Assembly (NCBI GenBank): GCA_002070905.1
Contig: MWEF01000010.1
Location: 1-40,827, forward strand
From: Tenericutes bacterium ADurb.Bin087
Lineage (GTDB): Bacteria; Bacillota_I; Bacilli_A; RFN20; CAG-826
Direction of reading: 5' to 3'
Length of the DNA stretch: 40,827 bases
The notes under the pieces: model-generated
What the model was told of the DNA's origin: nothing
Seen by the model: only the letters and a program-made list of their open reading frames with translations
The model's database searches: none
Position numbers and translations under genes: made by a program
Part shown: positions 8,515 to 36,673 of the stretch, piece after piece
Numbering within the stretch: position 1 is the stretch's first letter
Layout: each line of letters begins with the position of its first letter

Positions 8515-8543
8515 GGGGAATCTAAAACAAAGTGTCGTAGTTA

Positions 8544-9662: not shown

Positions 9663-9674
9663 CTTTCCTCTCCT

Positions 9675-11007: not shown

Positions 11008-11036
11008 ATTATAAGATGAAAATAGATTTTTGTAAA
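11008..11036 (-). promoter_or_regulatory. Promoter of the GH43 pair
   Basis: On the minus strand TTTACA (11031-11036), a 17-base spacer and a perfect TATAAT (11008-11013) form a near-consensus sigma-A promoter. The predicted start near 11001 falls inside the operator at 10991-11006, consistent with LacI repression. The leader to the first GH43 gene would be about 37 bases. Confidence 0.75.
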
Positions 11037-11099
11037 CAAAGGGAAACGCTAACGCTTAATCTAATTTATTTTACGATGAATCTATGCCATAATTATTTT

Positions 11100-15240: not shown

Positions 15241-15251
15241 AAATTGCCTCC

Positions 15252-17753
15252 TTATCGTGCCCGATGTGTAATCGTTGGGGTAATAACTAAATAATATGAC
15301 GTTAAGTTAATAACTTCCGCAGTATTTTTATTAATAACATACGCACTTAAGTAATAGTCGCCACTAAAAAGAGCATCTGTTAAATCAATTGTGTGATTAA
15401 GCGGAATCCCATTTGCATATTTACCAAGCGGTAATTTACTAAAGTGCGGGACATTGTATGTCTTTTTTATCGGCGCAAATAAGATATCACCATTTAAATG
15501 GTGACCTTCAATGACAAATTCAATTTCATAGTCACTCTTATCATTTGCGTACCGCTTATTAAGCGCTAAAGTGGCAATTTCTAAATTAGTGCCACTAAGT
15601 GTAAACGTTGCGGCCCCTGCACTAAAATCACCGCGCGCGGTTGCTAATCCAACATACATATCACCTGCACCATAATAGAAATACCATTTATTGTTATGAC
15701 GCAGCATCGTATCCGCAAACATGCATTTGTTAAATAATCCGTAATCAATCTTATTCGTATCAGTTGGATACATCGTAGGTTCATCTAAATCTAATGTGAC
15801 ATTCGTTAATTCAAATGGATTACTTTGGGTTGTTTTCAAGACCCCCAGCGCATAAAACCATCCGCTAGCGTTTGGTTGTTGATATTGAATGTTTGCGTCA
15901 CTTAACACCCCACCACCATACATTAAGTAAATATCTTGATCATCTGCTCCATAGATATTTGTTAGCGCCATACATGATTCGTTACCTTTGGTTAACTTTT
16001 CGATGTCATTTGGCCCAAAGCTACTAGTGTCGATATCGATAATATCACTTGCTTCAATTCGTGTAACATCATTTGTAAAGCCAATCCTAGTGTAACCACC
16101 ATCTTTCATATAAATCATATACACTTCGCCAAATTTACCCGGTCGCGGATCACTAATTTTAATTGCGTTCCCTTCGGGATCTGTCACAAATGTTCCTGAT
16201 TTATAAGCTTCATTATAGTCAGGCGCTAACCGACCTACTTTATTAAAAGTGATGAAGTCATGTGTATAAATCATTCCTTCGCGCGTAATACTATAGTCAT
16301 ACATCGTGTAAGTAATGTAATAAGTTGTTAAGCCCCCACGACGTGGATCATTTTTAATTTTAAAGATGCGCGGATCTTCTAAACCACCACCATGTTCTTC
16401 AGCAATTGTCGGCCACGCAATTGGATTATTAGCGCCGCGCGTATAATGTATGCCGTCATACGAATAAGCGTAAGACAAAGTTGACATATGACCCAATTCA
16501 TAACGTGTTCCAAAATACGTTGCATAATTATCGGGTAATTCTGAACGATAAATCATATGGAATATATCGTTATCTTCGTCATAAATCACTGCTGGGTTAT
16601 ACGTTGCGTAACTTTCAAACCCAGGAATATTACCGTCGGCAATACTCTCCATATTCGTCACAACGCCATCCGCGGCAATAGGATAACCGTGGGGCGCTAA
16701 AATGAGTCCTTCATCATGTAAAGTAATATTACTCATCGCCACCCATGCTGGACTATTTTTAGAGAATTCCATTGGATGACCAACTCTCACTGCCCTTAAT
16801 TCTGATTCTTTATATATATCAAAAGAATAAATCGAGAACGTTGATTCCCACGGATAACGCCCTGTTTTCTTCGTTGCTTCACTAGTCTCGCGTTGAATTA
16901 GTTCAACTTTAACATAACGACTTGTCGCTGCCGTTTTTAGTTTGAATGTATCAACTTCACCAAGACCCGCTTCTGTACCAGTAAGATATTCCCAGCCATC
17001 AGCTTCACGTGCTGGACTAGTGTCTGAAGTTTCAGTATGTTTATAAATTTTAAAGATACGAGCAAAGGATACTTCCCACCGCACTTTAATTAAGTCAAAA
17101 GTCACGGGTGCTTTAAAGTCAAAAATCAACCCTTCATTATCATTTTGTGTGGACGCCCAGCGTGTATGCGCTTTGTCATCTAGAATTGCCGCTGCTGGTA
17201 ATTCACTAGCGTTTTCAAAGCTTGATGCGTAAATGACGTCACCACCTACTCCTAGGCTTTTAGGACCATACACTTCAAAACTATAAAATGAATAGCCGTA
17301 TTCTAGCGCTCGCCTCACACCTTGAAACTTCACAAATTGTGTTTCCACCCACTCAGGAAAAACAATTTCATCCATTTCACTATTTGTTTTTGTAACAGTG
17401 GCCACTGTTGTCCACGTAACAGCATCCATTGACATTTGTAGTAAATATTCACTAGCATACGCTGCTTCCCAATCAATTACCACTTTACCAACACGTTCCA
17501 CACCACCTAAATCAATGTAGAAAAAGGCATTATCATCACGCACTGCTGCATAGCGTGTATCACGATTTGCATCAACAGCGTGTATATTAAGATGGTTGTC
17601 GGTGTGGCCACTTGAGACAACACGACGACCAAAAGCAAGGTCAACGCCATACTCCATCGTCCCAATGACTTTAATTGGTACTTCACCCTTAAAACTAATG
17701 GCACTACTAACGATGACCGCCGTTAAAATAAGTAGTCCTCTTTTTACTTTCAT
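15252..17753 (-). CDS. Secreted GH130-like beta-propeller protein with two F5/8C (CBM32-like) modules
   Basis: Exported protein of 833 residues with a signal peptide (hydrophobic 6-20) but no lipobox Cys. Two discoidin/F5-8C-like modules (about 37-163 and 172-315) show WAS/RYAA strands and the closing SFYSFEVYG / SIYSFDIYK. A five-bladed propeller follows (about 325-708) with SYATYNPAVI, GLEDPRI (457-463) and YYGAGDMYVGLATA (693-706), all typical of GH130. A C-terminal Ig-like domain completes it. Most GH130 enzymes are cytosolic phosphorylases. Exported ones of this type in Bacteroidetes are hydrolases of beta-1,2-mannosides, so a beta-mannosidase outside the cell is plausible. The gene overlaps the upstream GH125 stop by four bases (ATGA). 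Confidence 0.82.
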   Translation of the reverse strand: MKVKRGLLILTAVIVSSAISFKGEVPIKVIGTMEYGVDLAFGRRVVSSGHTDNHLNIHAVDANRDTRYAAVRDDNAFFYIDLGGVERVGKVVIDWEAAYASEYLLQMSMDAVTWTTVATVTKTNSEMDEIVFPEWVETQFVKFQGVRRALEYGYSFYSFEVYGPKSLGVGGDVIYASSFENASELPAAAILDDKAHTRWASTQNDNEGLIFDFKAPVTFDLIKVRWEVSFARIFKIYKHTETSDTSPAREADGWEYLTGTEAGLGEVDTFKLKTAATSRYVKVELIQRETSEATKKTGRYPWESTFSIYSFDIYKESELRAVRVGHPMEFSKNSPAWVAMSNITLHDEGLILAPHGYPIAADGVVTNMESIADGNIPGFESYATYNPAVIYDEDNDIFHMIYRSELPDNYATYFGTRYELGHMSTLSYAYSYDGIHYTRGANNPIAWPTIAEEHGGGLEDPRIFKIKNDPRRGGLTTYYITYTMYDYSITREGMIYTHDFITFNKVGRLAPDYNEAYKSGTFVTDPEGNAIKISDPRPGKFGEVYMIYMKDGGYTRIGFTNDVTRIEASDIIDIDTSSFGPNDIEKLTKGNESCMALTNIYGADDQDIYLMYGGGVLSDANIQYQQPNASGWFYALGVLKTTQSNPFELTNVTLDLDEPTMYPTDTNKIDYGLFNKCMFADTMLRHNNKWYFYYGAGDMYVGLATARGDFSAGAATFTLSGTNLEIATLALNKRYANDKSDYEIEFVIEGHHLNGDILFAPIKKTYNVPHFSKLPLGKYANGIPLNHTIDLTDALFSGDYYLSAYVINKNTAEVINLTSYYLVITPTITHRAR

Positions 17754-20296
17754 AATGGCTCCTCCTCTAATAAATTAATATTCAATATTTTAGTCAAATA
17801 TAAATGAGCGTAAAGCGCACATGGCCACGTAAACCATTCACGTGAATATTCACTCGGATTATTAGCGTTAAATGCTTCATGCATCACATACGTCCCCGCT
17901 GTGGTATTTGTCATATATTCAATCATTGTGGCAATTTCAGCTTGATCATCAGTCGTTAAGCCTTGCATTGCAAGCGCCATATGCCATGGCACTGGAATAT
18001 CAGGATGCGGATTAGTGCCGCCGATACTATCATGGGGATCGCCAATCCCTTTCGCATATGTACCTTCATAATAGTAAGGATTGTCTTTACTTAAGATAAA
18101 AGCGCGCGTGTTTAAATAAGTCGGATCATTGTTAGCGGCGTATCCTAACCACGGAATAGCTAAGAGACTTGGAATATTCGCCGCATCCATCAGTAATTTT
18201 CCATCAGCGGAATTAACATCACTACTAAAACCATTAACTTCAAACGCATATATTTTCCCGTAACGCGAATGATGATATGTAGCGTATGTCTCGATTGCCG
18301 TTCTTACTTCACTAGCCATTGTCATAGCAATATTTTTTTCCATTGGAAACCGATCTATTTCATCTAGTAATAGCGCTATTTTTTCTAGTGTGGCGACCGC
18401 AAACATATTGCCAGGAATAAAGAATTTATAGTAATTAACATCATCACTTGGGCGATAGCCACTCCAAATTAAGCCGCTTTCTGTATTAACTTCATGCGGT
18501 CCCGCAGCGCGATCACTTTCATTCGTTATCCGGTAATTAGCGTCATCATGACTCCGTTCATTTTCAAGTGTTTCCAATACCTTTCTTAAAGTAATTTGAA
18601 AGAAAGAATCAAAGATTGAATCATCGTGTGTAATGTCATAATACTTACCAGCGAGCCAGAGCGGATACATTAGTGAATCAATTTCAAATTTAAGTTCAAA
18701 TACACTGCCATCATGACTAAAGGCGTTCGCATATTGCTGACGACGCAGCAGTTCAAATTGACGTAAAAGTAATCCTTTTATCATCATCTGTACATCTTTA
18801 TCCATATTCATAAATTGTAAATATGGTAAGACTTGTGCACTTGAATCACGTAACCACATTGCATTTATATCGCCAGTAATAATGAAGGTTGTGCCATTCC
18901 GCTTATTGCTTTGCACAACACTTGGCCAATTCCCTTTGTGATTTGAAATTCCGTCAAGTGTTGCGTAAAATGTTTTTTGCACAGTAATTCGCGTTGTTTC
19001 GTCACTTATACTTTCAAACAAAGGATCAACATAATTACGCATTACAGTATACGTATAATCATTCGTGTCAAAACTAAGTAAGTTAAACGCTATTTCATCA
19101 TTAATAGCGGGTAACGATGTATAATCCGTTTTAATTTGTTCAATTGTTAAAAGGCCCCAATCACCACGTGAATTATCCACAAATTCAAAATAAAGCGCTT
19201 TATGCTTATATGGCACTAAATCGATGTAATAGAGATGGGTTGCTTCTTCATCGGTGTCTTTCCACCGATCACTAAAGAACCGGAACACTTCATGATTCGT
19301 ACCAACTTCTTTAAGCGAAACATACGTAACATCACGATGCTTAGTCGCGCCTAAACGAATAGACGCTAAAAGTTGATTAGTTGCTTTAAAAGCACTCGAG
19401 CGAAGCACACCAATTTTTGTTTCGTCAGCGCGATTACTTAGGCGTTTAGAAGCATTAATATGGCTTGTTTTAAAGACGCCCTCTTCACCAATAACAGTAT
19501 AACCAGAAAGTCCTAAATTAAAGTCACCATTATATAGAGCCGTTGGTGTCCCAGCGTAATCACTAAATACTGGTTTTACATCAGATGCCTTAGTATATGC
19601 TGACAAATCAGGCCTGTTTTCATAATATGTGACAAAGTGATCAACAACTAAATAACCGTAATTTGCCGTGCTTTGGTCCACTAATTGGATTTTTATTTCG
19701 TGACCTAAAAGATTACTTAAATCAATATAATAGTCATTCATATTTTCGACACGATACGCTAAGTCACCACTATTTGGTACGTTAAATAATTGATTGCTCA
19801 CGCGGTATAATTCAACTTCGGTGCTAGCGTCAATAAAGGACACATAAGTTAAAGCGCTAAGATAGGCTCCACCTAATTTAAAAGTAATGATGCCACTGCC
19901 ACCAATAACGAAAGAACTAGAACGTAAGATACCTTCTCTACTTTCATTTTGACTATAGAGAAAGTAATAACCCGCTTTATTATAGGCTACACTTGGGTTA
20001 ACATTTTCAAAATCGACAACATCTGTGTCACTAAAAGCATCACCTCTTATTACTTCCCAGCCACTTAAGTCACCAGTTTCAAAATTACCATTAGTAACTT
20101 GATATCTTCTAGTGTCAACTTCCGAACTTGAGCTTTCACTTGATGCACTACTAACATCACTACTTCCTTCACTTATTACGATTGAAGCAGTTGTTGTGTC
20201 GCTACTTGAACTCGTTGCTTTACAACTTAGCACACCAAAAAAGCTAATGAGTAAGACAAATATTTTCGTGAAATAACGTTTTTGTGCCACTTTCAT
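17750..20296 (-). CDS. GH125 exo-alpha-1,6-mannosidase lipoprotein
   Basis: Lipoprotein of 848 residues (lipobox VLSC, Cys25). A Ser/Glu-rich spacer is followed by two CBM-like modules of the FETGDLxGW type (about 66-226 and 255-392) and then a complete GH125 domain (about 414-836). GH125 signatures include TGDINAMWLRDSSAQ (474-488), SGYRPSDD (612-619, with the likely general acid Asp), MDAANIPSLL (703-712), NPYYYEG, and MHEAF (805-809, with the likely base Glu). Family members remove alpha-1,6-linked mannose, so yeast mannan or N-glycan cores are candidate substrates. The GGAG site is one base from the ATG at 20296 but seven from a GTG at 20290, so the true start may be that GTG. Confidence 0.92.
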   Translation of the reverse strand: MKVAQKRYFTKIFVLLISFFGVLSCKATSSSSDTTTASIVISEGSSDVSSASSESSSSEVDTRRYQVTNGNFETGDLSGWEVIRGDAFSDTDVVDFENVNPSVAYNKAGYYFLYSQNESREGILRSSSFVIGGSGIITFKLGGAYLSALTYVSFIDASTEVELYRVSNQLFNVPNSGDLAYRVENMNDYYIDLSNLLGHEIKIQLVDQSTANYGYLVVDHFVTYYENRPDLSAYTKASDVKPVFSDYAGTPTALYNGDFNLGLSGYTVIGEEGVFKTSHINASKRLSNRADETKIGVLRSSAFKATNQLLASIRLGATKHRDVTYVSLKEVGTNHEVFRFFSDRWKDTDEEATHLYYIDLVPYKHKALYFEFVDNSRGDWGLLTIEQIKTDYTSLPAINDEIAFNLLSFDTNDYTYTVMRNYVDPLFESISDETTRITVQKTFYATLDGISNHKGNWPSVVQSNKRNGTTFIITGDINAMWLRDSSAQVLPYLQFMNMDKDVQMMIKGLLLRQFELLRRQQYANAFSHDGSVFELKFEIDSLMYPLWLAGKYYDITHDDSIFDSFFQITLRKVLETLENERSHDDANYRITNESDRAAGPHEVNTESGLIWSGYRPSDDVNYYKFFIPGNMFAVATLEKIALLLDEIDRFPMEKNIAMTMASEVRTAIETYATYHHSRYGKIYAFEVNGFSSDVNSADGKLLMDAANIPSLLAIPWLGYAANNDPTYLNTRAFILSKDNPYYYEGTYAKGIGDPHDSIGGTNPHPDIPVPWHMALAMQGLTTDDQAEIATMIEYMTNTTAGTYVMHEAFNANNPSEYSREWFTWPCALYAHLYLTKILNINLLEEEPL

Positions 20297-20300
20297 TCTC

Positions 20301-21746
20301 CTAATAATTTAAATTACGCGCATGATTCGCGGTTGTTAAATCAGGTACTGATCCGTAATATGTTTTAATATCTGATACAAAGATTACATCCCAACTATTA
20401 GTCGCGTTATCGACGACTTCAAAGTAAGCTTTTTTGCCAATGTAGTTACTTAAATCAATAAAGTATTCAATCATATTTGTCCCGTCATGTTTTTCGTTAG
20501 CAAATCTAAATATTTCCTTGTTACTACCATGTAACCGCACTGACACATATGTATCTTTGTCAAAGCGTGCTCCTTTCGCGGCACCAAGTTTAAGCGAAGC
20601 ATATCCTGATCCATCAATTGTAAATAAAGATGAGCGAATTAAGCCGCGCCCCACGTCTCCATTTACGTTACTTTTAAGTATCCCGTCTTCCACATGAAAC
20701 GCTGAAGTATCTTGCCACCCTAAATTTGGCGAAACTTGCCACATATCTAAACCTTGTGTAAAGTCACCGTTCGGTAATTGATTTGGCGCATAATTGAGTG
20801 GAAAAATAGGAATTTCATTAATCGCTTCACTCGTCTCGAGTGGAGGTTCAGTTTCATAATATGTATTAAGCGCATCAAATGTAATACATTCATCACTGTG
20901 ACCGCCACAATCATGGACAACTACATAGAGTTTTTCCCCTACATAAGCACTTAAATCCGCTTTATAAAGCGCCATTGCTCCGTACTTTGTTGGACTATTA
21001 GGAATATGATAATTACGCTGACTATAACGGGCTATTTCAACGTTATCTTTAGCGCGATGAATGGAAACATGTGCTAAATCGGCAACGCGACCAATACCCA
21101 AACGGTAAGTAATGAAGCCACTGCCACCTAAAGTAAAGGTGGACGAGCGTAAGGTGCCCATTTTCTCTTCAAAAGTCGGTCTACTTTCACCAGTTATCGG
21201 ACCTACAAGATAATCCCCGTCAACAGTGTATGGTTCACTATAAGGGTCGCCGCTAGTAATTACACTATCATCAGTGAACGCTAACAAGTTGCGCTCGCCC
21301 TTAAAGATGGTATCAGCGTACCAACCAAATAAATCGCCCGTTTCAAAGGAATGATTGATCACACGATATTCATTATGTTTATCAAGGATCGTAAACGTGA
21401 TTTTACTTTTACCAGTTGTCGAATGGACGTTAAGTTCATATTCACCAGGTAAAAGGTATGCTAGATAATGTTTTCTAATATAAATACTTTGACTAATAAT
21501 ATCGTAATCACTTGCCACAATGTTATGACCACTTAAAAAGGATATTTCACCAGCGTCAACATCAAAGGTGTACTGGAGATCGTTTAACGCATCAAAATCA
21601 AAAGTATCAACAATAGGACTCAGTGTAAAATCATTAACTTCCATTACTTCACTCGAAACTTGTGCTGTCGTTTGTGATTGTGAAACTTTTGCCGCACAGC
21701 TCGTGAGTAATAGTAAACAAAAACCAATCATCACCTTTTGTTTCAT
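20301..21746 (-). CDS. Carbohydrate-binding lipoprotein with X2-like and two FETGDLxGW modules
   Basis: Lipoprotein of 481 residues (lipobox LLTSC, Cys17) without a catalytic domain. An X2-like domain (about 40-121; SGHNIVASDYDI, then IRKHYLAYLLPGEYEL) is followed by two copies of the jelly-roll module also seen in the GH125 protein and in the protein at 32264-33949 (about 129-298 and 325-465). The first copy has SFETGDLFGW, GTLRSSTFTLGGSG and TYYE. The second has NGDFTQGLDMW, GLIRSSLFTIDGSG and TYY. It probably retains substrate at the surface beside the GH125 enzyme encoded four bases downstream. The start overlaps the upstream gene by ATGA. Confidence 0.85.
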   Translation of the reverse strand: MKQKVMIGFCLLLLTSCAAKVSQSQTTAQVSSEVMEVNDFTLSPIVDTFDFDALNDLQYTFDVDAGEISFLSGHNIVASDYDIISQSIYIRKHYLAYLLPGEYELNVHSTTGKSKITFTILDKHNEYRVINHSFETGDLFGWYADTIFKGERNLLAFTDDSVITSGDPYSEPYTVDGDYLVGPITGESRPTFEEKMGTLRSSTFTLGGSGFITYRLGIGRVADLAHVSIHRAKDNVEIARYSQRNYHIPNSPTKYGAMALYKADLSAYVGEKLYVVVHDCGGHSDECITFDALNTYYETEPPLETSEAINEIPIFPLNYAPNQLPNGDFTQGLDMWQVSPNLGWQDTSAFHVEDGILKSNVNGDVGRGLIRSSLFTIDGSGYASLKLGAAKGARFDKDTYVSVRLHGSNKEIFRFANEKHDGTNMIEYFIDLSNYIGKKAYFEVVDNATNSWDVIFVSDIKTYYGSVPDLTTANHARNLNY

Positions 21747-22669
21747 ACCTGCGGTAACCTTTCGTATTCCATAAACGGGTCTTCTAGTATTGCATAATGC
21801 CCTTCAGCATCACTTAAACCCGCATATAATGTTGCTAACCCATCATCGTGACGTATAATACCACCAACAAACACCACATCCACTAAATCAGGACGTTTTG
21901 TTTCACCCGCGGCAAAGTCGTTTCTTTCACAAATAATCTTCATTTGTGTTGCTACTTTTGTTTTTGGATTAAACGCAAACGTCATTCCGTAATAATGGCG
22001 AACATTACCGGCGCTAAAGGTGGCAATATGACCTAAAATGCCAAGCCAGCCATTTTTCAGTACAAAAGCTTCATTGACTCCACCCCATGTTGTGTCACTA
22101 AATTGATTGGGAATAATGACTGCTTCATCAATCATTTTAGTGGTGATATCACTAAACTTAGCGGCAAAGGTGTACCCAATCTTCCCTGGTCCCGCTTTCC
22201 CGCCTTGGGGGCGACTAAAAACATGGATCCCATGCTTATCTTCTAACAACCGCACATCTTTCATTTTATAAGGAGCGACAAGCGCTTTTTCTAAAGAATC
22301 TAGTCCTGTTCCTTTATAAAATGTTGTGTGCCAATGCGTAATATTATCCTTATCATCAGTGAATATTTCTGTGCCGCCGATAACGAGGTGCTCATCAATC
22401 GTGGTGACGCATGGATCTTGGAAGTTAAGAATTTGATATTTGGTAGCGCTATAGAGATCGTTGTCTATTTCTGCAAAGAAAACAACGCGTGAAGCTTCTT
22501 GATGCCGCGATTCAACACGACCCGCTAAATACGTTTTACCTTGCCACACAAAAGGCGCTGCAATATTATAAACATCTTCGCCTTTAACACCGCGAAAGGT
22601 AATTTTTTGGGTCTTAATGATTTTGTTATTAAGCCGATGCGCTGTAAGTAATTTATTGATATCTTCCAT
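21743..22669 (-). CDS. DUF1861 / GT108-like beta-propeller protein
   Basis: Cytosolic protein of 308 residues without a signal peptide. It resembles the DUF1861 family (GEDVYNIAAPFVWQGKTYLAGRVESR near 34-60, QDPCVT near 83, and KIGYTFAAKF and WGGVNEAF in the middle). From memory, members of this family in Leishmania and bacteria form CAZy GT108, beta-1,2-mannosyltransferases/phosphorylases related in fold to GH130. That fits its place between a mannosidase gene and a sugar importer. It could phosphorolyse imported beta-1,2-manno-oligosaccharides to mannose-1-phosphate or build a storage mannan. Its stop (TGA) overlaps the next start and the ribosome binding site is AAAGGA. The family call rests on remembered motifs only. 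Confidence 0.72.
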   Translation of the reverse strand: MEDINKLLTAHRLNNKIIKTQKITFRGVKGEDVYNIAAPFVWQGKTYLAGRVESRHQEASRVVFFAEIDNDLYSATKYQILNFQDPCVTTIDEHLVIGGTEIFTDDKDNITHWHTTFYKGTGLDSLEKALVAPYKMKDVRLLEDKHGIHVFSRPQGGKAGPGKIGYTFAAKFSDITTKMIDEAVIIPNQFSDTTWGGVNEAFVLKNGWLGILGHIATFSAGNVRHYYGMTFAFNPKTKVATQMKIICERNDFAAGETKRPDLVDVVFVGGIIRHDDGLATLYAGLSDAEGHYAILEDPFMEYERLPQV

Positions 22670-22670
22670 A

Positions 22671-23567
22671 CTATCCTTTAATCCCCACTCCCGCGACTGA
22701 TTGTAAAAATTTCTTTTGCATAAAACTAAATAAGAGCACGACTGGTATTAAACTAATAAGACTTGCCACTGAAACATAGTTCCACGGAATTAAATATGAG
22801 CTTGAACCACCTTCACGATACAAATTTTCAAAAATCGAAATACTATTTGCCATTACCCAATTTGTTTTATCACTAATGTAAAGTGCTGGGCCATAGAGGT
22901 CGTTATATGTTCCGACGAAATATAAAAGAATAACCGTTGTAATTGCGGGTATGTTCAGTGGTAACACAATTTTAAAGAAAATTGCCACCTCACCATAACC
23001 ATCCACTCTAGCCGCTTCAATTAAGGCTTTTGGTATTGTTTGAAAGAATTGTTTAAACATAAAAATCACAAATACATCAGTCGCAAACCATGCCCCAATC
23101 CACAGCGGGATATACGCTACTTCTTTAAGGCCAGCGTTCACCATAAATTCATAGATTGGGATGCCAAGTAGTTCGCCTGGAATCATCATCGTTGATAATA
23201 AAATGAAAAAGATGATGTTTTTGCCAGGAAATTTAAAGAAAGCAAAACCATACGCTGCTAACGAACACGTAATGACAGTTCCTAATGTTTTTAATACAAA
23301 GATGAACATGGTGTTTAAGAACATCCGTACAATTTTATAATCAGGATGTGTTAATACAAACTTTAAGTTTTCCCATAATGCAAAGGATTGCGGAACCATC
23401 GTCGCTTGCGTTGCCGCTTCATTTAAATCTTTCATCGCGGTAATAAGCAGATAATAAAGCGGGATAAGCGCAATAAAGGCAAAAAAGGATAAGGCAAAAT
23501 AGATGAATGCCTTTCTGGCATTTTCTTTATGCTTAATACTATGTTTTCTGGCGCTTTCCTTGATCAT
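22671..23567 (-). CDS. ABC sugar importer permease, MalG type
   Basis: CUT1-family permease of 298 residues with six predicted spans and the EAA loop (EAARVDGYGEVAIFFKIVLPL). It ends in SVAGVGIKG, like most MalG proteins. The start lies inside the stop of the MalF-type gene (ATGA overlap of four bases), so the pair is translationally coupled. As in the arabinan locus, no ATPase subunit is encoded in the operon. Both importers may share one ATPase encoded elsewhere. The predicted cargo is a manno-oligosaccharide, inferred from the flanking GH130, DUF1861 and GH125 genes. Confidence 0.93.
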   Translation of the reverse strand: MIKESARKHSIKHKENARKAFIYFALSFFAFIALIPLYYLLITAMKDLNEAATQATMVPQSFALWENLKFVLTHPDYKIVRMFLNTMFIFVLKTLGTVITCSLAAYGFAFFKFPGKNIIFFILLSTMMIPGELLGIPIYEFMVNAGLKEVAYIPLWIGAWFATDVFVIFMFKQFFQTIPKALIEAARVDGYGEVAIFFKIVLPLNIPAITTVILLYFVGTYNDLYGPALYISDKTNWVMANSISIFENLYREGGSSSYLIPWNYVSVASLISLIPVVLLFSFMQKKFLQSVAGVGIKG

Positions 23568-24499
23568 GATAATGTAATATCCTTTTCAACATAAAATTTA
23601 GACATAAAGAATTGAATTAGTGTAAATCCTAAAATGACAAGGAAGAATAACCATGCCATTGCTGCCGCATACCCTAAGCGGAACGGCATATTAAAGGCCG
23701 TCATAAACATATAGATTGGGAATAAAAGCGTGGAATTACTTGGCCAGCCTTGACCATTTCCCATCACAAACGCTAACGAGAACGCCCGTAATCCATCAAT
23801 TGTAATTAAAATAACATTAAAGAATAACATCGGGGTAATAAGCGGTAACGTAATCCTAAAAAATTGTTGCGTCCGCGTCGCGCCTTCAAGTTTCGCCGCT
23901 TCATATAGATGTTCAGGAATACTCTGCAAGGCCGCAAGGAAAACAAGCATTTTAACACCAAAGCCCATCGAACTAATCAGAATCATTGTTAAGAGCGCAG
24001 AATCAGGTGAAATATGCCATAAGGGCGGATTAGTGACCCCAAATAAACTCAAAATTTGGTTTATTAAGCCTGTGCCAGGGTTAAATAAGTTTTTATACAC
24101 TGCCCCAACGGCAAAACTAGGAATAATAAAAGGTAGCATATATATAGTTCTAAATACGCCAATACCTTTAACTTTACTATTCAGTAACAACGCTAAAATA
24201 AGTGACGTCACAAGGACAAAAAAGCCACTTATTACCGCAAAAATCATTGATTGTTTAATTGATAAGGCAAATAATTTGTCATGCTTTATTGCATACAAGT
24301 AATTTTCCCAGCCAATAAATTCAGTGTTTGTGTCAAATATACTCTTATTCGTGAACGATAACACTAACGTTCTCACAATCGGATAAAAGTAAAAGAGTAA
24401 GAAGCCAATTAAAGCAATCCCCGTGAAAAGCAAGAAATAACGATAGTCTTTCCTAAACTTCTGTCTAAATTGTTGCCACTTGCTCTTCTTCGCTATCAT
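23564..24499 (-). CDS. ABC sugar importer permease, MalF type
   Basis: CUT1-family permease of 311 residues with a Lys/Arg-rich cytosolic start, a first span near 20-42, and further spans. The EAA loop (EAAKLEGATRTQQFFRITLPL) is present near residue 205-225. The ATG directly follows the TAA of the binding-protein gene with no gap, which implies coupled translation. It forms the heterodimeric channel with the next gene product. Compared with the arabinan-locus MalF protein it is only loosely similar outside the EAA loop, so the two importers are not recent duplicates. Confidence 0.93.
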   Translation of the reverse strand: MIAKKSKWQQFRQKFRKDYRYFLLFTGIALIGFLLFYFYPIVRTLVLSFTNKSIFDTNTEFIGWENYLYAIKHDKLFALSIKQSMIFAVISGFFVLVTSLILALLLNSKVKGIGVFRTIYMLPFIIPSFAVGAVYKNLFNPGTGLINQILSLFGVTNPPLWHISPDSALLTMILISSMGFGVKMLVFLAALQSIPEHLYEAAKLEGATRTQQFFRITLPLITPMLFFNVILITIDGLRAFSLAFVMGNGQGWPSNSTLLFPIYMFMTAFNMPFRLGYAAAMAWLFFLVILGFTLIQFFMSKFYVEKDITLS

Positions 24500-25819
24500 T
24501 TAGTTTGCTCCATATAAATTTTGATAATAATTGTTAACGTTATTTTGAATCTTCGTTAACACTTTGACAACATCAGTTTCGGCACCACGCCCATCAATCA
24601 TTAATTTATATAATTCACTCATCACAAATTCGCGCATTATTTTGGCAAAATCCTTCTCTTGTGGGAGCACAACTGCTTCACTAATCGCCGCAAAAAGGGC
24701 ATCAATATTGACATGCTTTTGCTTGTCACTTGGTAATTCAGCAATATATGCTTGCATTTCTTTCAGCGCACCAATTTTACCGTGTTCATACATTTTGAGC
24801 GCGCCTTCTTTACCCGCCCATAGTTTTAAGAAATTAAACGATTCTTTTGCTTTTTTACTGCGGACTGAGATACCAAAGGCATCCGCCGATAATTCGCCAC
24901 CAGGAGCGGTAGGTCTCTCTATCGGTTTTGGTAAGACCTGTATATCCCAATCAAGACCAAGCACATCATAAGAGAACCAGTCACCTAAATGTCCACCGAA
25001 GATCATCGCAACATTGCCTGCGGTAAACGAATTAGCGCTCGCCATTTCGTTTGCATTCGGACTAAATTTAACGCCCACTGGTCCCATTGCTTTATCGCGA
25101 AAGAAAGTGGTGGCGGCGATAACTTCGGGCGTCGTCAAATTAACTTGATGATTATTAGTGCCAGGCACATAGAAAGTCCCGCCCATTTGTTGCACATAAA
25201 CATACCATTCACCCCACCAATTTAGTTGTGTTTCCGCACCAAATGTATAGGGGGGCGTGCCACTGACATTTGTCATCGCTACACCTGCTTTTTGAAAATC
25301 ATCATATGTCCAAGTAGCTTGTGGATAAATACTTTCATTAGCACCGAGATTTAATGCACTTCTAATTGCGGATGCATGCTCATCAAACATTGCTTTATTG
25401 TAATAAAGGAGTGAAGTATTGAGTGAAGTCGGAAGGGCATATACTTTATTATCAAATGTTAATGCATCAATAATTGGCTCTAAATAGTCACCTAATTTAA
25501 AGTTAGCGTCACTATTAATTAAACTTGTTAAATCAAGTAAAGAAGGACGCATTACCTCAATAATAACGGTACTTGTTTTAATAATATCGGGTTCATCTTT
25601 CGTCCCAATTAATTTACCAACATCTTGCCCATACGTTGCTTTAACTGTAATCCCTGTTTGTGCTTTATAAAGCGCAAATAAATCATCATAGCGACCATCA
25701 TCTTCAATATCAAGGGCGATTTTTATTTCATCAACATTTGGCTTATTAAAACAACTAGTAAGCGAAGTACTTAATGCGAGTAAACTAAGTAACACACTTA
25801 TTTTAATGACCCTTTTCAT
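24500..25819 (-). CDS. ABC transporter sugar-binding lipoprotein
   Basis: Family 1 solute-binding lipoprotein of 439 residues (lipobox SLTSC, Cys23). The pattern is typical: DLFALYKAQTGITVKATYG at the start of the mature part, YALPTSLNTSLLYYNKAMFDE at the hinge near 130-150, and FTAGNVAMIFGGHLGDW near 270-286. It feeds the two permeases encoded directly after it. Its start overlaps the stop of the GH130 gene (TAATG) and has an AGGAGA site. The operon content suggests beta- or alpha-linked manno-oligosaccharides as ligand, which the sequence alone cannot prove. Confidence 0.93.
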   Translation of the reverse strand: MKRVIKISVLLSLLALSTSLTSCFNKPNVDEIKIALDIEDDGRYDDLFALYKAQTGITVKATYGQDVGKLIGTKDEPDIIKTSTVIIEVMRPSLLDLTSLINSDANFKLGDYLEPIIDALTFDNKVYALPTSLNTSLLYYNKAMFDEHASAIRSALNLGANESIYPQATWTYDDFQKAGVAMTNVSGTPPYTFGAETQLNWWGEWYVYVQQMGGTFYVPGTNNHQVNLTTPEVIAATTFFRDKAMGPVGVKFSPNANEMASANSFTAGNVAMIFGGHLGDWFSYDVLGLDWDIQVLPKPIERPTAPGGELSADAFGISVRSKKAKESFNFLKLWAGKEGALKMYEHGKIGALKEMQAYIAELPSDKQKHVNIDALFAAISEAVVLPQEKDFAKIMREFVMSELYKLMIDGRGAETDVVKVLTKIQNNVNNYYQNLYGAN

Positions 25820-26844
25820 TAGACATCTCCTAAGTTGCGATCAATTTCATCATACGTCAGCGTTGCGACCGCAATTTTTTCGTCACACACCCCGTAATAT
25901 ACTTTAACCTCATCTTCTTCAAATACCGCACCACATGTAAAGATAACTTCAGGCATTAGTCCTTCTTTCTCAAACGGTTCAGTTGCGGTTATTAGCGGCG
26001 CTTTACTTCTTTTTAGTATTTTGCTTGGATCATCCTTATCAACAAGGAGCGCGGCTAAATGATAACGATTTTGCGTGTCAGCGCTGTGATAAATAACAAG
26101 CCATCCGTCCGCTCTTAAATGCGGAACCGCACCAGCACCAAGCCGCACACTATGCGTATAATCAATGCGGGCCTGCGTTAGGACTTTATGTTCACCCCAA
26201 TGGATTAAATTCGTGCTCCGCGCCACCCACATATCAAGCTGGCCAAATTCACTTGTACTAGGCCGATGATAGGCATAATAGTAACCATTAATCTTGCGGG
26301 GAAATAAGACAACATCTTTATTATCAAAATGAAAGATATTGCCTAACCGTTTAAAGTGTTTAAAATCAGTGGTCACCATTAACCGCACATTAATGCCATA
26401 TTCACTAACAGCGGTATAGGCAATGTAGTACTTACCATCAATTTCCGTAATCCGTGGATCTTCAATCCCAAATTCTTCATAAATCGAATCTGGTAATAAT
26501 GGTTTTTCATCAAACGTAAAATTATAACCATCTCTACTTCGCCCAATCCGGAAGTGACTAATCGATGTTAAGTAATTTTGCCGATGATTACGAATGACCC
26601 TAATGTCACTAAAATCATAATCTGGATCAGTCTTCGAAAATTTCAAGAACACATAATCGTGATTACGATAAACAGGGATCACCATTTGTGTATCATTTTG
26701 CGCGGCAAATGTTTCCGCGACACGCGCCAGCATAACATATTCATCTTTAACTTTAATTACCGCTGGATTAAAGACACCAAACACCTTAAAGTCGGGCCGA
26801 CTTGGTGTAATTTGCGCTTTAGTAATAATTAATCGTTTTTCCAT
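25819..26844 (-). CDS. GH130 beta-mannoside phosphorylase (cytosolic)
   Basis: GH130 enzyme of 341 residues without signal peptide. Family motifs occur in the expected order: VFNPAVIKVKDEYVMLARV (24-42), FGIEDPRIT (125-133), KDVVLFPRKINGYYYAYHRP (176-195), DGWLVIYHSAD (246-256) and KVYYGVCDEKIAVAT (314-328). Family members cleave beta-1,4- or beta-1,2-linked mannose with phosphate, giving alpha-mannose-1-phosphate. This needs cytosolic phosphate and fits the location. The product can be used by the mutase and isomerase at 34062-36672. Linkage specificity (Man-GlcNAc, beta-1,4 or beta-1,2 mannobiose) is not readable. Its start is one base after the stop of the preceding lipoprotein gene. Confidence 0.9.
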   Translation of the reverse strand: MEKRLIITKAQITPSRPDFKVFGVFNPAVIKVKDEYVMLARVAETFAAQNDTQMVIPVYRNHDYVFLKFSKTDPDYDFSDIRVIRNHRQNYLTSISHFRIGRSRDGYNFTFDEKPLLPDSIYEEFGIEDPRITEIDGKYYIAYTAVSEYGINVRLMVTTDFKHFKRLGNIFHFDNKDVVLFPRKINGYYYAYHRPSTSEFGQLDMWVARSTNLIHWGEHKVLTQARIDYTHSVRLGAGAVPHLRADGWLVIYHSADTQNRYHLAALLVDKDDPSKILKRSKAPLITATEPFEKEGLMPEVIFTCGAVFEEDEVKVYYGVCDEKIAVATLTYDEIDRNLGDV

Positions 26845-26845
26845 A

Positions 26846-28762
26846 TTACGCTAACCAATACATCCTTAAAAAGTGAATTTTCATCATCGCATCGGGAAAT
26901 TGTGCGCCGATATCACTGCCGTTAACGACTAAATAAAGGCGCAAGCCAGGATGCGGAGCATAAAAATCAATAACATGAAACCCAGGTTCGTTGCTCGCGG
27001 CTATTTTAATCGGATTAGGAGAGATATTACGACTATCAGAATCATAATACAATACTTTAATTTCCCACATTGTTTTAACATAATCATTCATCTTGTTTAA
27101 TTCATCAACTTGCAAAAAGATTTGAAGATGTGCGCCAACAACTGGATGTTTTATATTTGTGGTCACAATCCCGCCAAAACAATATTTCGCTTCGGGATAT
27201 TTATTTTGTTTCATAATTAGTCGTTCATTCTCGATCGTAAGTGATGCGGGACTTAAAGCGTGCACGACTGGGTCAATATTTTGTTTAGTGCGATCAGGGA
27301 TTATCCAATTTTGTGAATCCATAAAACTACGCGCAACGTCGTTAATCATATTAATACCCGCACGAACATCAAGCGTATACTTTTGCGGAAAACCCTCATT
27401 ATTAATGACAATGCCTTCTTCAATGTAGGATGGTTCTTTTATCCACCCAAAGTTATCGCTGTGATAAGCAAAAGCGGCAAGTAAAACTTCCGGATTATCA
27501 ACCTTAAATAACGCCCCACCGAGTTTACGATATAATGTCTTAATTCCGCCTTCCGCAAATGGTAAATGCATATATGCTTTATCATTTATCGCACGCGAGG
27601 TCGCAAATGGATAGTTCCACCCTTCACTATAAGTGTTGATTAAAACATGAGAATTATCTACAACATAAGGATGAATAAACTGGCATTCTTCATCATTATT
27701 TATCGCTAAATACATAGCGCCTTGCCATGTTGTTTTAAAGAGCTTATCAAATAATGCGACATCTGCACTGCTCCCTTCATAATCTAAACTTGCTAACGCT
27801 ACTTTTAAGTCATTAATATTTTCATAACCACTTAAAACATCAACCGCAATGGTGGCAGTCTTACTTTGGTCCACACGTGATTTCGCGCTTATTGTTGTCC
27901 GCCCGACACCGACAAAGTTAACCTTCCCCACTTCGTCAATTGTCACTATGTTTTCATCAGCGCTCTCCCACCACACTGCTTGATTTGTCGTACTTGGTAA
28001 AACAGCAGCGGTTAAGATAACAGGGTCACTATCAACAAGCCGCGTTAATTTATGATCAATAATCGCGGAAGAATTAATTTCAATGCCAGTAATGGCTTCA
28101 ATGTTATTATAAATCGCAATATGGCGTAAATTTAATTCAGCGGTTTGCCGTTCACCATCAGGCCCTTTCGCTAAAATATGGAACGTGCAATTTTTAAATT
28201 CATTTTCATATTTCCACCCATTTTGATAACCAGGGTCTGGTTGAGTATTCCGCTGCCGATATTTAGTACAAAGCATTGCATCAACAACATTAACGGAAAT
28301 TATTCCTGGTGTACTTTCGTCACTAAGGACATAATAATACTCAAGTTCCCCTTCTACCGCTAATTTGATAATGTATTGGGAGTAAGCATTAACAACATCC
28401 ATCTCAAAAGTCACAGCTTTGGAAAAATCTAAATATAGAAGCGGTGTTTGCACACCACCATAATTATCCAAACTAGCGTCAATATTCCAAATCGAAACAT
28501 AATCTTCATCTTCATTATAATTTGCGACACCTGCTGGAGTTGCGCTTCCAAATTGACTAATGTGATAGGCAGAATAATAAACACTTTCCCCATTCCACCT
28601 TGGAATTTCCGAAGTATTCTCGCTACTAATATCTTCACTATTCGTGCTTGTGCCAAGTTGTTCAGAACTACTTTCACTACTTGCATTTTCGCTACTTGAA
28701 GGGATAGCACAACTTGTGAATATTAGTAATCCAAAAAGTAACAATATTATCTTTTTATTCAT
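26846..28762 (-). CDS. Lipoprotein with BIG2 domain and unrecognised C-terminal region
   Basis: Lipoprotein of 638 residues (lipobox IFTSC, Cys18) and a Ser/Glu spacer. An N-terminal beta-rich module (about 54-220) looks like a carbohydrate-binding jelly roll. A BIG2 Ig-like domain (about 222-310; AVWWESADENIVTIDEVGKV) follows. The C-terminal half (about 320-638) I do not recognise: first a mixed helical part with AMYLAINNDEECQF and GWNYPFATSRAI, then a beta-rich part with VGAHLQIFLQVDEL and GLRLYLVVNGSDIGA. It could be a new enzyme or binding domain. It is second in the mannoside operon, four bases after the unknown 687-residue lipoprotein and one base before GH130, so it is surely co-expressed with mannoside enzymes. 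Confidence 0.8.
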   Translation of the reverse strand: MNKKIILLLFGLLIFTSCAIPSSSENASSESSSEQLGTSTNSEDISSENTSEIPRWNGESVYYSAYHISQFGSATPAGVANYNEDEDYVSIWNIDASLDNYGGVQTPLLYLDFSKAVTFEMDVVNAYSQYIIKLAVEGELEYYYVLSDESTPGIISVNVVDAMLCTKYRQRNTQPDPGYQNGWKYENEFKNCTFHILAKGPDGERQTAELNLRHIAIYNNIEAITGIEINSSAIIDHKLTRLVDSDPVILTAAVLPSTTNQAVWWESADENIVTIDEVGKVNFVGVGRTTISAKSRVDQSKTATIAVDVLSGYENINDLKVALASLDYEGSSADVALFDKLFKTTWQGAMYLAINNDEECQFIHPYVVDNSHVLINTYSEGWNYPFATSRAINDKAYMHLPFAEGGIKTLYRKLGGALFKVDNPEVLLAAFAYHSDNFGWIKEPSYIEEGIVINNEGFPQKYTLDVRAGINMINDVARSFMDSQNWIIPDRTKQNIDPVVHALSPASLTIENERLIMKQNKYPEAKYCFGGIVTTNIKHPVVGAHLQIFLQVDELNKMNDYVKTMWEIKVLYYDSDSRNISPNPIKIAASNEPGFHVIDFYAPHPGLRLYLVVNGSDIGAQFPDAMMKIHFLRMYWLA

Positions 28763-28766
28763 CTTA

Positions 28767-30830
28767 TTACCTACATATAACTTTCTTTGTCACATAATCT
28801 TGTAAGCCATTTTTAGTTTCAATTACAACTTTCAGCGTATAATCAGTATGTGGCAATAAGTTTTTATCATAAAAGAATGTCTCAATAGGTTCACCATCAT
28901 ACACTAAGATATCATCAAAGGCGATTTTCATATTCACGATATCGTCACCTTCTAAACCAGTGTATTTAATTTCAATTGGAGTTGCTTCCGTTAACTCTTG
29001 CCATGTTTCAATGTTAAGCAGTTCTACAGCGGGACGTTTTTTAGCAATGATATTTTCACCACAGAAAATGGTATCACCTTCTACTTTTAAGTAACTATTT
29101 GCGGGTAATACTTTAAGCACTAAAGCTCGCTCTTTTTCTAATAAAATACGCACATTTCCCTGCAAATTGCGGCCAAATACCGAATTTGATGTCAAATCAA
29201 ACAAGTCATATCTTGTCGCTAATCCTTCAAAAGTTATAATCTTTTCTTCGGCATAGGGATTATAAAACATATACGTTGGATAAAGATTATCACCAAAACT
29301 ATCAGTCGCATTTAAATTAATTTTGAGGATGCCGTTAATGTCTGTTGGTGCCACTAATGCACCCATTCCCCCAAGCAACACACTACTATATAAACTAATA
29401 TCACTTGGTTGATCAAAGAGTGTTGTCGCATCTCCCATTGCGTATCCATTTATCCCCGCGTAATTATTTCTAAAGCCCTCGTAAACTAGGTAACCGCTTG
29501 GGTCAAATGGTAAGTAAATATTCATTGTTTGATTAGTAAGCGCATGCTCTTTCGGGAAGAAAACACGACTATTACTAGCGACATTTAACATATATTTTCC
29601 TAATGCTGTTGCGTAACGCGGCTCATACTTAATAAGCGGCATTAATGTCGTTGGTAAATGGAATGAATTCATCGAGAAAGCGTAATCGCCTACTTGACCA
29701 ACTAACCCATGCATTGGATAAGAAGCAAAAGTATCATTAAGTACCGCCCACCCCGGTCTAAAATCTGAATCATTATCAAACACGAAATCGATAAATTTTC
29801 CAATATCATAATTTGTGCCATACTTTTGATTTAAGATTGAAGCGACATATGGTGCATAATCAGTCAAGGCTTCATAGTTAGGATTCTTATTGTAAGTTTG
29901 TAAATAATTAAGTACTTCTTTACAGCCCGCTAAATATTTTTCCTCTTTTGTTATTTCGTAAGCTGAATAAAAGATAAATGCTAGACCACCATTTGGCGGT
30001 TCAATATGATTACCAGTCGTCGTTGGTGATTGTAACACAACGTTATAACCAACGAACTCGTAATTAGGTGCATCATCTTTTTTAAAATTCGGTAATGCCG
30101 CTAGCCACTGGTTAGCACCATTTAGCACCATCTCACGCATGTATGGCGTATCCCGATAATAATCAAACAAGCGCGCAAATAATATTTGTGGAAATAAATC
30201 ATACCAAAAACTTTGCCCTTGAACCCCATAGTTATGCACTAATTTACAACCAGTGTCATAACTTGCAAATGTCATTTCGGCAAAGTCATAAGTTAAGTCG
30301 CCATAATTAATGTTTTGTTTATTAATACCAGCAAACGTACTCCCTAACACTGCACCAATCGTTACCATCGCTTCACTGCCGGAACTTAACACTCGGTTAT
30401 CACCAACGTAAGTAGGTAACCCAAAAGTTCGCTTTAGATAGCCAGTTTCTAGTGGGTTATAAGTTGATGGTTGCCGCGGTTGATCTAACCAATAACCCAT
30501 TGGATTCCAGGTTGCAGGTTCACTAGCAATATAGGCTGGTAATTTAGCAGTAGGATTATTTGCAAAATCAAATACTAGGGCATCTATTTCGTGCGCGATG
30601 TGATGATAATCAATATATTTATAGTTTTGTGGTAAATTAGGAAAAGAGTTAATGCGTGAGATACCTTTTTCGACATATCTTTCGCGTTTATATAGTGTCT
30701 CAGTTTCACTACTTAAAATATGTTCACTACTTCCATCACTTGTCGTGGCGCTACTTGAAACATTGTTGCAGCCCGTCACTAGCAACAGCAAAATTATAAA
30801 TAAGCTGCAGGGACGTTTTTTATTCACCAT
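28767..30830 (-). CDS. Unrecognised lipoprotein, candidate alpha/alpha-barrel glycosidase
   Basis: Large lipoprotein (687 residues from the ATG at 30830; lipobox LLVTGC) and first gene of the mannoside operon. I cannot place it in a named family. Residues 60-520 look like an alpha/alpha barrel of paired helices with aromatic, acidic loops: YGVQGQSFWYDLFPQILFA, NHIEPPNGGLAFIFYSAYEI, DSDFRPGWAVLNDTFASYP and SFHLPTTLMPLIKYEPRYA. A beta-sandwich of about 150 residues closes the protein. This layout is common in alpha/alpha-barrel glycosidases and lyases. An ATG three bases upstream (30833) is also open, but the GAGG site is spaced better for 30830. Function is inferred only from neighbours. Confidence 0.8.
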   Translation of the reverse strand: MVNKKRPCSLFIILLLLVTGCNNVSSSATTSDGSSEHILSSETETLYKRERYVEKGISRINSFPNLPQNYKYIDYHHIAHEIDALVFDFANNPTAKLPAYIASEPATWNPMGYWLDQPRQPSTYNPLETGYLKRTFGLPTYVGDNRVLSSGSEAMVTIGAVLGSTFAGINKQNINYGDLTYDFAEMTFASYDTGCKLVHNYGVQGQSFWYDLFPQILFARLFDYYRDTPYMREMVLNGANQWLAALPNFKKDDAPNYEFVGYNVVLQSPTTTGNHIEPPNGGLAFIFYSAYEITKEEKYLAGCKEVLNYLQTYNKNPNYEALTDYAPYVASILNQKYGTNYDIGKFIDFVFDNDSDFRPGWAVLNDTFASYPMHGLVGQVGDYAFSMNSFHLPTTLMPLIKYEPRYATALGKYMLNVASNSRVFFPKEHALTNQTMNIYLPFDPSGYLVYEGFRNNYAGINGYAMGDATTLFDQPSDISLYSSVLLGGMGALVAPTDINGILKINLNATDSFGDNLYPTYMFYNPYAEEKIITFEGLATRYDLFDLTSNSVFGRNLQGNVRILLEKERALVLKVLPANSYLKVEGDTIFCGENIIAKKRPAVELLNIETWQELTEATPIEIKYTGLEGDDIVNMKIAFDDILVYDGEPIETFFYDKNLLPHTDYTLKVVIETKNGLQDYVTKKVICR

Positions 30831-30846
30831 CATATGCCTCGATTTC

Positions 30847-30938: not shown

Positions 30939-31928
30939 CTAGTGAATGATCGTTTTTACAGAATCTCTTTCCACTAAAATAACACTAATTTGCTGCGTAA
31001 CATGCTTTTTATTCATAATGTCAATCATTGCACTATAAGCTTTTTTGGCAAAAGAATCGCGCGCTGGGCCAATGGATGTTAATTTTGGTAATAAATTTTC
31101 ACAAAGTTGAGTATTATCAAAGCTTACTACTGAAACATCATCTGGCACTTTAAAACCATTAAATGATAATAGTGAATAGAGTTTTTGTGCCGCCGCATCA
31201 CAGTGACAAATAAAGGCAGTAGGCATATCCTGAACTGGTAAATCAAAGATGACTTGGCTTATTTCAATGTTCTCATTTATATGCCAATGCGGGTTAACAG
31301 GTAATCCGTTTTCATTAACGGCCTTTAAGTAGCCAAAATAACGATCAGACACTGCATCCGTTTTATTAATATTACCAATAAAGCCGATTTTACGATGACC
31401 TTTTTCAATCAAATAATTCGCAAGTTTATAGGCCGTTTGATAGTTGTTGTTATACATAAAGTTTAATGAATAAAGCGGTGAATAAAAATCAATAAATAAC
31501 GATGGTATGGTAATGTTTTCAACATATTTAAAAATTTCAGCACTTAATTCACCTGCGAAAAAGACACCATCGGGTTTTAAAGTATTAATCGCTGATTTTA
31601 ATTTTTCAACGGGATTAACATCATCGCTAAATACGACTTGTAACATACTATTAACTTTTGAAAGTTCGCCACTCAAATAATAGAAGATATTTGAATAATA
31701 TTGCTCTGACGGGGTTAAGAAAAAGTCTTTATTAATCACAAAAATAAAACGTTTATTATCCATTACTTGGCGTGTAGTTTTTACCCCGTATCCTACTGCT
31801 AAAGCGTAGGCTTTAATTTTTTTGCGAAGTTCTTCACTGACACCTTTGTGATTGTTAAGTGCCTTGTGAACGGCAACTGTGCTGACATTCATTTTTTCAG
31901 CAATGCTTTTTAGTGTTACTTTTTTCAT
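30939..31928 (-). CDS. LacI-family transcriptional regulator (mannoside locus)
   Basis: Regulator of 329 residues with an N-terminal helix-turn-helix (TLKSIAEKMNVSTVAVHKAL, 4-23) and a periplasmic-binding-protein-like sensor domain (KIGFIGN near 185 and VSVVSFDN near 275). The hinge segment after the HTH (GYGVKTTRQVMDNKR) lacks the usual YxPNxxAR(S/G)L pattern, so DNA-binding mode may differ from standard LacI. It lies between the mannoside operon and the divergent surface-protein gene, and TTAATC repeats stand in both flanking control regions. It is only weakly similar to the LacI protein at 11100-12122, consistent with a separate regulon. The effector is unknown. Confidence 0.88.
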   Translation of the reverse strand: MKKVTLKSIAEKMNVSTVAVHKALNNHKGVSEELRKKIKAYALAVGYGVKTTRQVMDNKRFIFVINKDFFLTPSEQYYSNIFYYLSGELSKVNSMLQVVFSDDVNPVEKLKSAINTLKPDGVFFAGELSAEIFKYVENITIPSLFIDFYSPLYSLNFMYNNNYQTAYKLANYLIEKGHRKIGFIGNINKTDAVSDRYFGYLKAVNENGLPVNPHWHINENIEISQVIFDLPVQDMPTAFICHCDAAAQKLYSLLSFNGFKVPDDVSVVSFDNTQLCENLLPKLTSIGPARDSFAKKAYSAMIDIMNKKHVTQQISVILVERDSVKTIIH

Positions 31929-36672: not shown

Positions 36673-36673
36673 T

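Follow-up and report, generated by a model that had tools for sequence, protein, structure and literature searches.

A conserved operon for predicted uptake and phosphorolysis of beta-1,2-mannosides in a likely wall-less bacterium, with a candidate new glycoside hydrolase family

Introduction

Bacteroides loci that combine GH130 and GH125 enzymes target beta-1,2-capped alpha-mannan, e.g., Candida mannan, and one of their GH130 members, BT3780, in which Lys199 marks beta-1,2 specificity, belongs to a yeast-mannan locus (PMC4599007). The GH125 protein BT3781 is taken to be the neighbor of BT3780 because the locus numbers are consecutive. Within the GH130 family, phosphorylases are cytoplasmic and hydrolases are secreted (PMC4599007). 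A different arrangement is found in Thermoanaerobacter, where an ABC importer is encoded together with two cytosolic beta-1,2-mannoside phosphorylases that complement each other in chain length, Teth514_1788 and Teth514_1789 (PMC4264767); both enzymes belong to GH130, and a role in GDP-mannose supply has been proposed. The third related system is that of the GT108 (DUF1861) enzymes, which have a common fold with GH130 and a similar inverting mechanism, and which in Leishmania are dual transferase-phosphorylases of mannogen (PMC8950772). In the openly licensed literature, we found neither a characterized bacterial GT108 nor an endo-beta-1,2-mannanase. To our knowledge, GT108 enzymes have been characterized only in Leishmania.

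The operon described here resembles each of these systems and differs from all of them. As in the Bacteroides loci, a secreted GH130 protein, predicted to be of the hydrolase type, adjoins a GH125 protein, but the operon additionally encodes an ABC importer, a predicted cytosolic phosphorolysis route, a GT108 protein and an orphan lipoprotein, and neither GH76 nor GH92 was found in the genome. The combination of an importer with two putative cytosolic beta-1,2-mannoside phosphorylases is shared with Thermoanaerobacter; in contrast to that locus, one of the two belongs to GT108, an extracellular apparatus is encoded as well, and fructose-6-phosphate is the end product suggested by the flanking genes. 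The GT108 protein itself shows 33-35% identity to the Leishmania enzymes (6q50, 6q4x), including the catalytic Asp, but is encoded in an uptake operon whereas the Leishmania enzymes turn over an internal store.

Organization of the operon

The stretch of DNA analyzed (hereafter, the window) comprises 40,827 nt of contig MWEF01000010.1, and all coordinates are positions in it, counted on the forward strand. Eleven minus-strand genes are packed into positions 13120-30833 with spacings of -4 to +11 bases; a LacI gene lies on the same strand, 105 bases upstream, and genes for a phosphohexomutase, a mannose-6-phosphate isomerase and a ROK kinase (34062-37618) are divergent from the operon. The LacI gene and the divergent mannose genes are part of the same picture as the operon. 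TGA ends 5 of the 29 genes checked in the window, so it is a stop codon and the genetic code is standard. The features are as follows:

13120..15240, minus strand: GLUG-motif surface lipoprotein, encoded by the last gene of the operon (PF07581, 35.5 bits; lipobox LSSC)
15252..17753, minus strand: secreted GH130 protein of the predicted beta-1,2-mannosidase type, with two carbohydrate-binding F5/8 type C domains (PF04041, 56 bits)
17750..20296, minus strand: GH125 protein, predicted exo-alpha-1,6-mannosidase, surface lipoprotein with N-terminal accessory domains (PF06824, 362.8 bits)
20301..21746, minus strand: lipoprotein built of the accessory domain, probable glycan-binding protein (31-34% identity to the GH125 accessory region and to a 561-aa protein of relatives)
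21743..22669, minus strand: GT108/DUF1861 protein of 308 residues, predicted cytosolic beta-1,2-oligomannan phosphorylase (PF08950, 334.7 bits)
22671..23567, minus strand: ABC sugar importer permease (PF00528; best NCBIfam match UgpE/GlcU/MalG)
23564..24499, minus strand: ABC sugar importer permease (PF00528; best NCBIfam match UgpA/MalF)
24500..25819, minus strand: solute-binding lipoprotein of the importer (PF01547/PF13416; lipobox LTSC)
25819..26844, minus strand: cytosolic GH130 protein, predicted beta-1,2-mannobiose phosphorylase (PF04041, 172.6 bits)
26846..28762, minus strand: Big_2-domain lipoprotein, probable surface glycan-binding protein (PF02368, 25.5 bits; lipobox FTSC)
28767..30833, minus strand: orphan lipoprotein, candidate new glycoside hydrolase family with a modeled alpha/alpha barrel and beta-sandwich, first gene of the operon
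30939..31928, minus strand: LacI-family regulator of the locus, retained in type A and type B operons (PF13377, 103 bits; PF00356, 27.4 bits)
32264..33949, plus strand: secreted protein that contains the shared accessory domain and is encoded divergently, with related proteins in the loci of relatives
34062..35741, plus strand: phosphohexomutase, predicted to convert mannose-1-phosphate to mannose-6-phosphate (PGM_PMM I, II and III; present in the G003, G017 and G034 loci)
35731..36672, plus strand: mannose-6-phosphate isomerase, class I (TIGR00218 manA, 152.3 bits, cut-off 116.2)
36674..37618, plus strand: ROK sugar kinase, with free mannose as the predicted substrate (PF00480, 189 bits)

The accessory domain is common to the lipoprotein at 20301-21746, which gave neither a Pfam nor a PDB match, the GH125 protein, and the divergent secreted protein at 32264-33949, for which there was no Pfam match. 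No gene for an importer ATPase is present in the operon, and a shared ATPase is assumed to serve it. The NCBIfam search did not resolve the substrate of the ROK kinase, and the search for a LacI operator palindrome gave nothing convincing near the locus or in relatives.

An earlier note on this DNA had counted eleven genes, allowing for gaps of up to 35 bases where the actual ones are tighter, but placed them in the interval 17750-30830, which holds only nine of them and omits the secreted GH130 protein and the last lipoprotein. The families that it named, namely GH125, two GH130 propellers, DUF1861, an ABC importer and lipoproteins, are all present. It missed the orphan lipoprotein family, the most novel part of the operon. 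The host, which the note took to be a probably wall-less bacterium of the Mycoplasmatota type, indeed looks so at the genome level: the search of the source genome (88% complete) gave no Mur ligase domain, and most members of its family have a single weak Mur ligase match, in a protein of FolC-like size, whereas four are retained in several other families of the order. Given the completeness of the genome, missing Mur ligases alone were not counted as proof of wall loss; nevertheless, the bacterium is likely to be wall-less.

Taken as a whole, the locus probably mediates LacI-regulated uptake and phosphorolysis of beta-1,2-mannosides derived from a yeast-type mannan that carries both alpha-1,6- and beta-1,2-linked mannose.

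Two architectures of the operon

The full operon (type A) is present in the source genome and in six further genomes (G003, G017, G311, G308, G181 and G384; in G003, which is of the same genus as the source, the contig ends at GH125). These genomes span four families of the class, and since the same gene order recurs in another genus of the source's family and in three other families, the arrangement is not due to chance. The conservation extends to the end of the operon: in G017, G311, G308, G384 and G181, an ortholog of the GLUG lipoprotein comes after the secreted GH130. In the tree of GT108 proteins, type A members of different families interleave (the window groups with G384, and G017 with G311), a pattern that may reflect transfer of the operon from one family to another.

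A compact operon (type B), found in five genomes (G178, G206, G132, G248 and G378), consists of genes for a binding protein, two permeases, a small lipoprotein, the orphan, GH130, GT108 and LacI. The type B stretches yielded neither GH125 nor the secreted GH130 (in G132, the contig ends after GT108), the Big_2 lipoprotein is kept only in type A operons, and in G378, the GT108 frame is broken. Since the type B operons retain the importer, the orphan, GH130, GT108 and LacI, the common substrate is best read as a beta-1,2-mannoside. One further genome, G034, keeps only the mutase, the isomerase and a GT108 which branches within the type A clade; directly before the GT108 gene, there is a 28-codon stretch resembling the C-terminus of a permease (L014:13030-13113). 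Judging from the gene content and this apparent relic, the locus is apparently an operon that lost its uptake part. Altogether, this is a real, conserved operon that brings known enzyme families into a new arrangement, in a likely wall-less lineage, and includes one unclassified family.

The orphan lipoprotein family

The distribution of the orphan lipoprotein closely follows that of GT108. Among 395 genomes of the class, DUF1861 was detected above the cut-off in 13, the orphan family (at least 165 bits) in 13, and both in 12 (Fisher p 6.6e-21; the genomes are related, so this value overstates the association, and seven families are represented). Weak DUF1861 matches in G011, G046 and G238 (17-24 bits, cut-off 28) were left out of these counts; in G011 and G046, the matching site encodes a GH130-like protein. 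In 11 of the 12 genomes, a single contig carries both genes, no more than about 8 kb apart, and in G308, the pair is split by a contig end. The pairing is repeated in Cellulosilyticum (L030), in Cohnella nanjingensis (L034), where the orphan homolog has no obvious signal peptide, and in a Clostridia MAG (L036), where it is a secreted form of 1779 residues. More distant relatives occur without DUF1861 in family f18 and G403. Such relatives, encoded at L124:5271-10301 and L127:5769-8588 in genomes where DUF1861 was not detected (one of them lies in a 1676-residue secreted protein), indicate that the family reaches beyond this mannan system.

The orphan has no Pfam, NCBIfam or PDB family match, and its relatives have no family match above the cut-off over the barrel. 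An early AlphaFold model built from three sequences was useless (pLDDT 41.9); the model built from an alignment of 21 sequences reached a pLDDT of 92.0 and a pTM of 0.93. The predicted fold combines an alpha/alpha barrel with a beta-sandwich, as in the GH127/GH146 beta-L-arabinofuranosidases (7exw, 8qf8), which are the best Foldseek matches in the PDB. However, with TM scores of only 0.26-0.33, about 10% identity, no Pfam match and no sequence relationship detected, membership in GH127/GH146 was rejected; in its modeled structure, the orphan resembles alpha/alpha-barrel glycosidases only remotely. Glu321 and Glu452 are among the invariant residues of the alignment, and Glu278 is nearly invariant. 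We infer that the family consists of alpha/alpha-barrel glycosidases.

The genomic context further suggests a substrate. The family accompanies GT108 and GH130 even in operons in which GH125 was not found, so the favored one is beta-1,2-mannan. We therefore put forward, tentatively and at somewhat less than even odds, that the orphan is the first member of a new glycoside hydrolase family whose enzymes depolymerize beta-1,2-mannan outside the cell, working at the surface as the counterpart of the bacterial GT108 and GH130 phosphorylases. A competing interpretation starts from the only PDB sequence match of the family profile below E 0.01, to an alpha-1,6-mannanase (E 0.0014 over 34 residues): together with the GH125 gene in the same operon and the failure to find GH76 in the genome, this match could mean that the orphan is an endo-alpha-1,6-mannanase-like stand-in for the missing GH76, acting mainly on the alpha-mannan backbone. 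This appears unlikely, about half as probable as the beta-1,2-mannan depolymerase. The match is tiny and of the kind expected between alpha/alpha barrels, Foldseek puts GH127/GH146 first, even if at low TM scores, and the orphan remains associated with GT108 and GH130 in type B operons, in which GH125 was not detected; none of the members of the 21-sequence alignment matches GH76 (PF03663).

The GT108 protein and the direction of the pathway

The PF08950 match of the 308-residue protein covers positions 6-295 of the 296-position profile (cut-off 28). Among the Leishmania structures, MPT-4 (6q50) is matched with E 8e-45, and the range for MPT-4, MPT-2 and MPT-1 is 8e-45 to 7e-36. Residue D85 aligns with MPT-2 D94, which is changed in the solved D94N mutant entry, and is invariant in the 39 bacterial, archaeal and Leishmania GT108 proteins compared; 34 positions are at least 95% conserved in this set, including D85, R51, K137, R140, H214 and D287. 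At the sequence level, the protein is a clear GT108 homolog that retains the catalytic Asp, as anticipated from its DUF1861-like appearance. GT108 and GH130 are also encoded side by side in Alkalicoccobacillus, Cohnella and Cellulosilyticum.

Given that the GT108 and GH130 reactions are reversible and that the characterized GT108s also synthesize, the catabolic direction is an assumption. If the direction were the opposite, mannose-1-phosphate would be the substrate from which GT108 and the cytosolic GH130 make a beta-1,2-mannan, either as a store comparable to Leishmania mannogen or as a surface glycan, and its turnover would be the function of the locus. The dual activity of the Leishmania enzymes (PMC8950772) is compatible with such a role, as are a gut relative of the cytosolic GH130 which is a mannoside synthase (9erg), the G034 locus, in which GT108 is retained with only the mutase and the isomerase, and a Cohnella GT108 gene that adjoins a phosphate-transporter-like gene. 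Nevertheless, in both operon types, GT108 is embedded among genes for an importer and extracellular lipoproteins, and no MannoseP_isomer domain, as in ManC-type GDP-mannose pyrophosphorylases, was found in the genome. Synthesis is thus distinctly improbable compared with the catabolism of imported beta-1,2-mannosides.

The two GH130 proteins, GH125 and the nature of the mannan

The cytosolic GH130 protein contains a GIEDPR motif with the catalytic Asp at positions 126-131. It is most similar to the Listeria beta-1,2-mannobiose phosphorylase Lin0857 (5b0p; E 1.2e-85, 42.9% identity over 329 residues), and as in Lin0857, His193-Arg194, putatively part of a three-residue phosphate site, are located near the Gly-Glu of 3r67 and 3taw. 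The score with the beta-mannobiose phosphorylase equivalog NF050092 (388.6 bits) is under the curated cut-off of 550, so the exact substrate is a matter of prediction. The protein is accordingly described here as phosphorylase-type and a predicted beta-1,2-mannobiose phosphorylase.

The secreted GH130 protein has an N-terminal hydrophobic signal and, by eye, no lipobox. Its profile match to 3r67 (probability 99.4) aligns the whole propeller at about 31-32% identity; the match to the BT3780 beta-1,2-mannosidase family NF058598 (61.4 bits) is under the cut-off of 550. The motifs GGGLEDPR (455-462), KSG with Lys518, and YYGAGD (693-698) are present, and equivalents of BT3780 Asn74, Arg89, Glu141, Asp142, Lys199 and Asp363 are all kept. 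Asp551 takes the place of BT3780 Glu227, and the invariant Glu592 in NESCMA is near the position of Glu268, where the alignment is uncertain. The HR pair of the phosphate site is missing. Thus, the protein appears to be a distant homolog of the BT3780-like beta-1,2-mannosidases, of the hydrolase type. Alignment of six orthologs overruled a reading by eye according to which it had neither the specificity Lys nor the catalytic carboxylates. The presence of both forms in one operon, a secreted hydrolase-type and a cytosolic phosphorylase-type protein, fits the described arrangement (PMC4599007).

The GH125 protein matches 3on6 (phmmer E 5.6e-85) and BT3781 (2p0v; 1.3e-82) and shares with both the RPSDD and MHE motifs, which we take to be catalytic. 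GH125 enzymes act on N-glycan mannose, and the target could conceivably be a eukaryotic high-mannose N-glycan, with GH125 trimming the alpha-mannose and the beta-mannose enzymes finishing the Man-beta-1,4-GlcNAc core. Some GH130 enzymes are indeed Man-GlcNAc phosphorylases (PMC8950772), but this target is very improbable, considering that the cytosolic GH130 is far from the Man-GlcNAc enzyme UhgbMP (E 2.4e-31), that the secreted GH130 has the beta-1,2 specificity Lys, and that the operon holds no gene for a Man-GlcNAc-type phosphorylase, an endoglycosidase or a hexosaminidase.

These results refine the earlier note in several respects. The phosphorolysis that it proposed inside the cell agrees with the key residues of the cytosolic GH130; the secreted GH130 is hydrolase-type in sequence and not phosphorylase-type. 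The linkage, given there only as beta, is best read as beta-1,2 in view of the Lin0857-like GH130, the GT108 and the BT3780-type Lys. Of the two sources that it proposed, N-glycan cores became less likely and yeast mannan is favored, the closest parallel being the Bacteroides yeast-mannan locus.

A proposed pathway

Under the beta-1,2-mannoside uptake reading, the surface lipoproteins would bind mannan, GH125 would trim alpha-1,6-mannose at the surface, the secreted GH130 would hydrolyze terminal beta-1,2-mannose, and the orphan lipoprotein would probably cut beta-1,2-mannan to importable pieces. Short beta-1,2-mannosides would then be imported via the solute-binding protein and the two permeases. 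In the cytosol, GT108 would shorten the longer chains with phosphate, and the Lin0857-like GH130 would split mannobiose, again with phosphate, both yielding alpha-mannose-1-phosphate; the mutase, the isomerase and the ROK kinase would then convert both mannose-1-phosphate and free mannose into fructose-6-phosphate. That GT108 would act on the longer chains and GH130 on the disaccharide is suggested by the example of Teth514_1788 and Teth514_1789. The scheme builds on the family assignments, the conserved residues, the predicted cellular locations and the conservation of the operon in two architectures; each activity, the linkage, the sharing of tasks between GT108 and GH130, the catabolic direction and the part played by the orphan are predictions. 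Searches of the genome (88% complete) gave neither a GH76 endo-alpha-mannanase nor a GH92 alpha-mannosidase, so the organism alone could probably not dismantle branched yeast mannan and probably relies on mannan that is already partly degraded or is rich in beta-1,2 linkages.

If this scheme is correct, bacterial GT108 enzymes gain a place in a catabolic pathway, and probably wall-less bacteria are equipped to feed on fungal-type mannan. It would also single out an unclassified protein family with a confident structural model, for which the genomic neighborhood predicts the substrate and a new enzyme activity is testable with a few cloned genes.

Other genes in the window and related loci

A second sugar operon, at 165-10964, encodes three GH43 proteins, a CBM4/9 protein, GH2 and an ABC importer, with its LacI regulator at 11016-12122, and probably targets arabinan- or xylan-type glycans. 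A minus-strand ORF of 157 residues without a Pfam match (12210-12683) lies between the two sugar operons, and a GH53 gene at 39439-40581 suggests use of galactan as well.

In the mannan loci of two relatives, there are genes for secreted purple-acid-phosphatase-like proteins (L013:693-3470 in G017 and L122:10269-13682 in G384). These would suit a phosphomannan substrate, which is only a lead.

Finally, in six loci of Cohnella and a Paenibacillaceae MAG (L024, L025, L026, L027, L029 and L038), GT108 adjoins an inorganic-phosphate-transporter-like gene, often with a PhoU/DUF47-like gene and with no GH130 nearby (families assigned by eye). These GT108s form a clade of their own in the GT108 tree, which may link the family to phosphate handling or storage.
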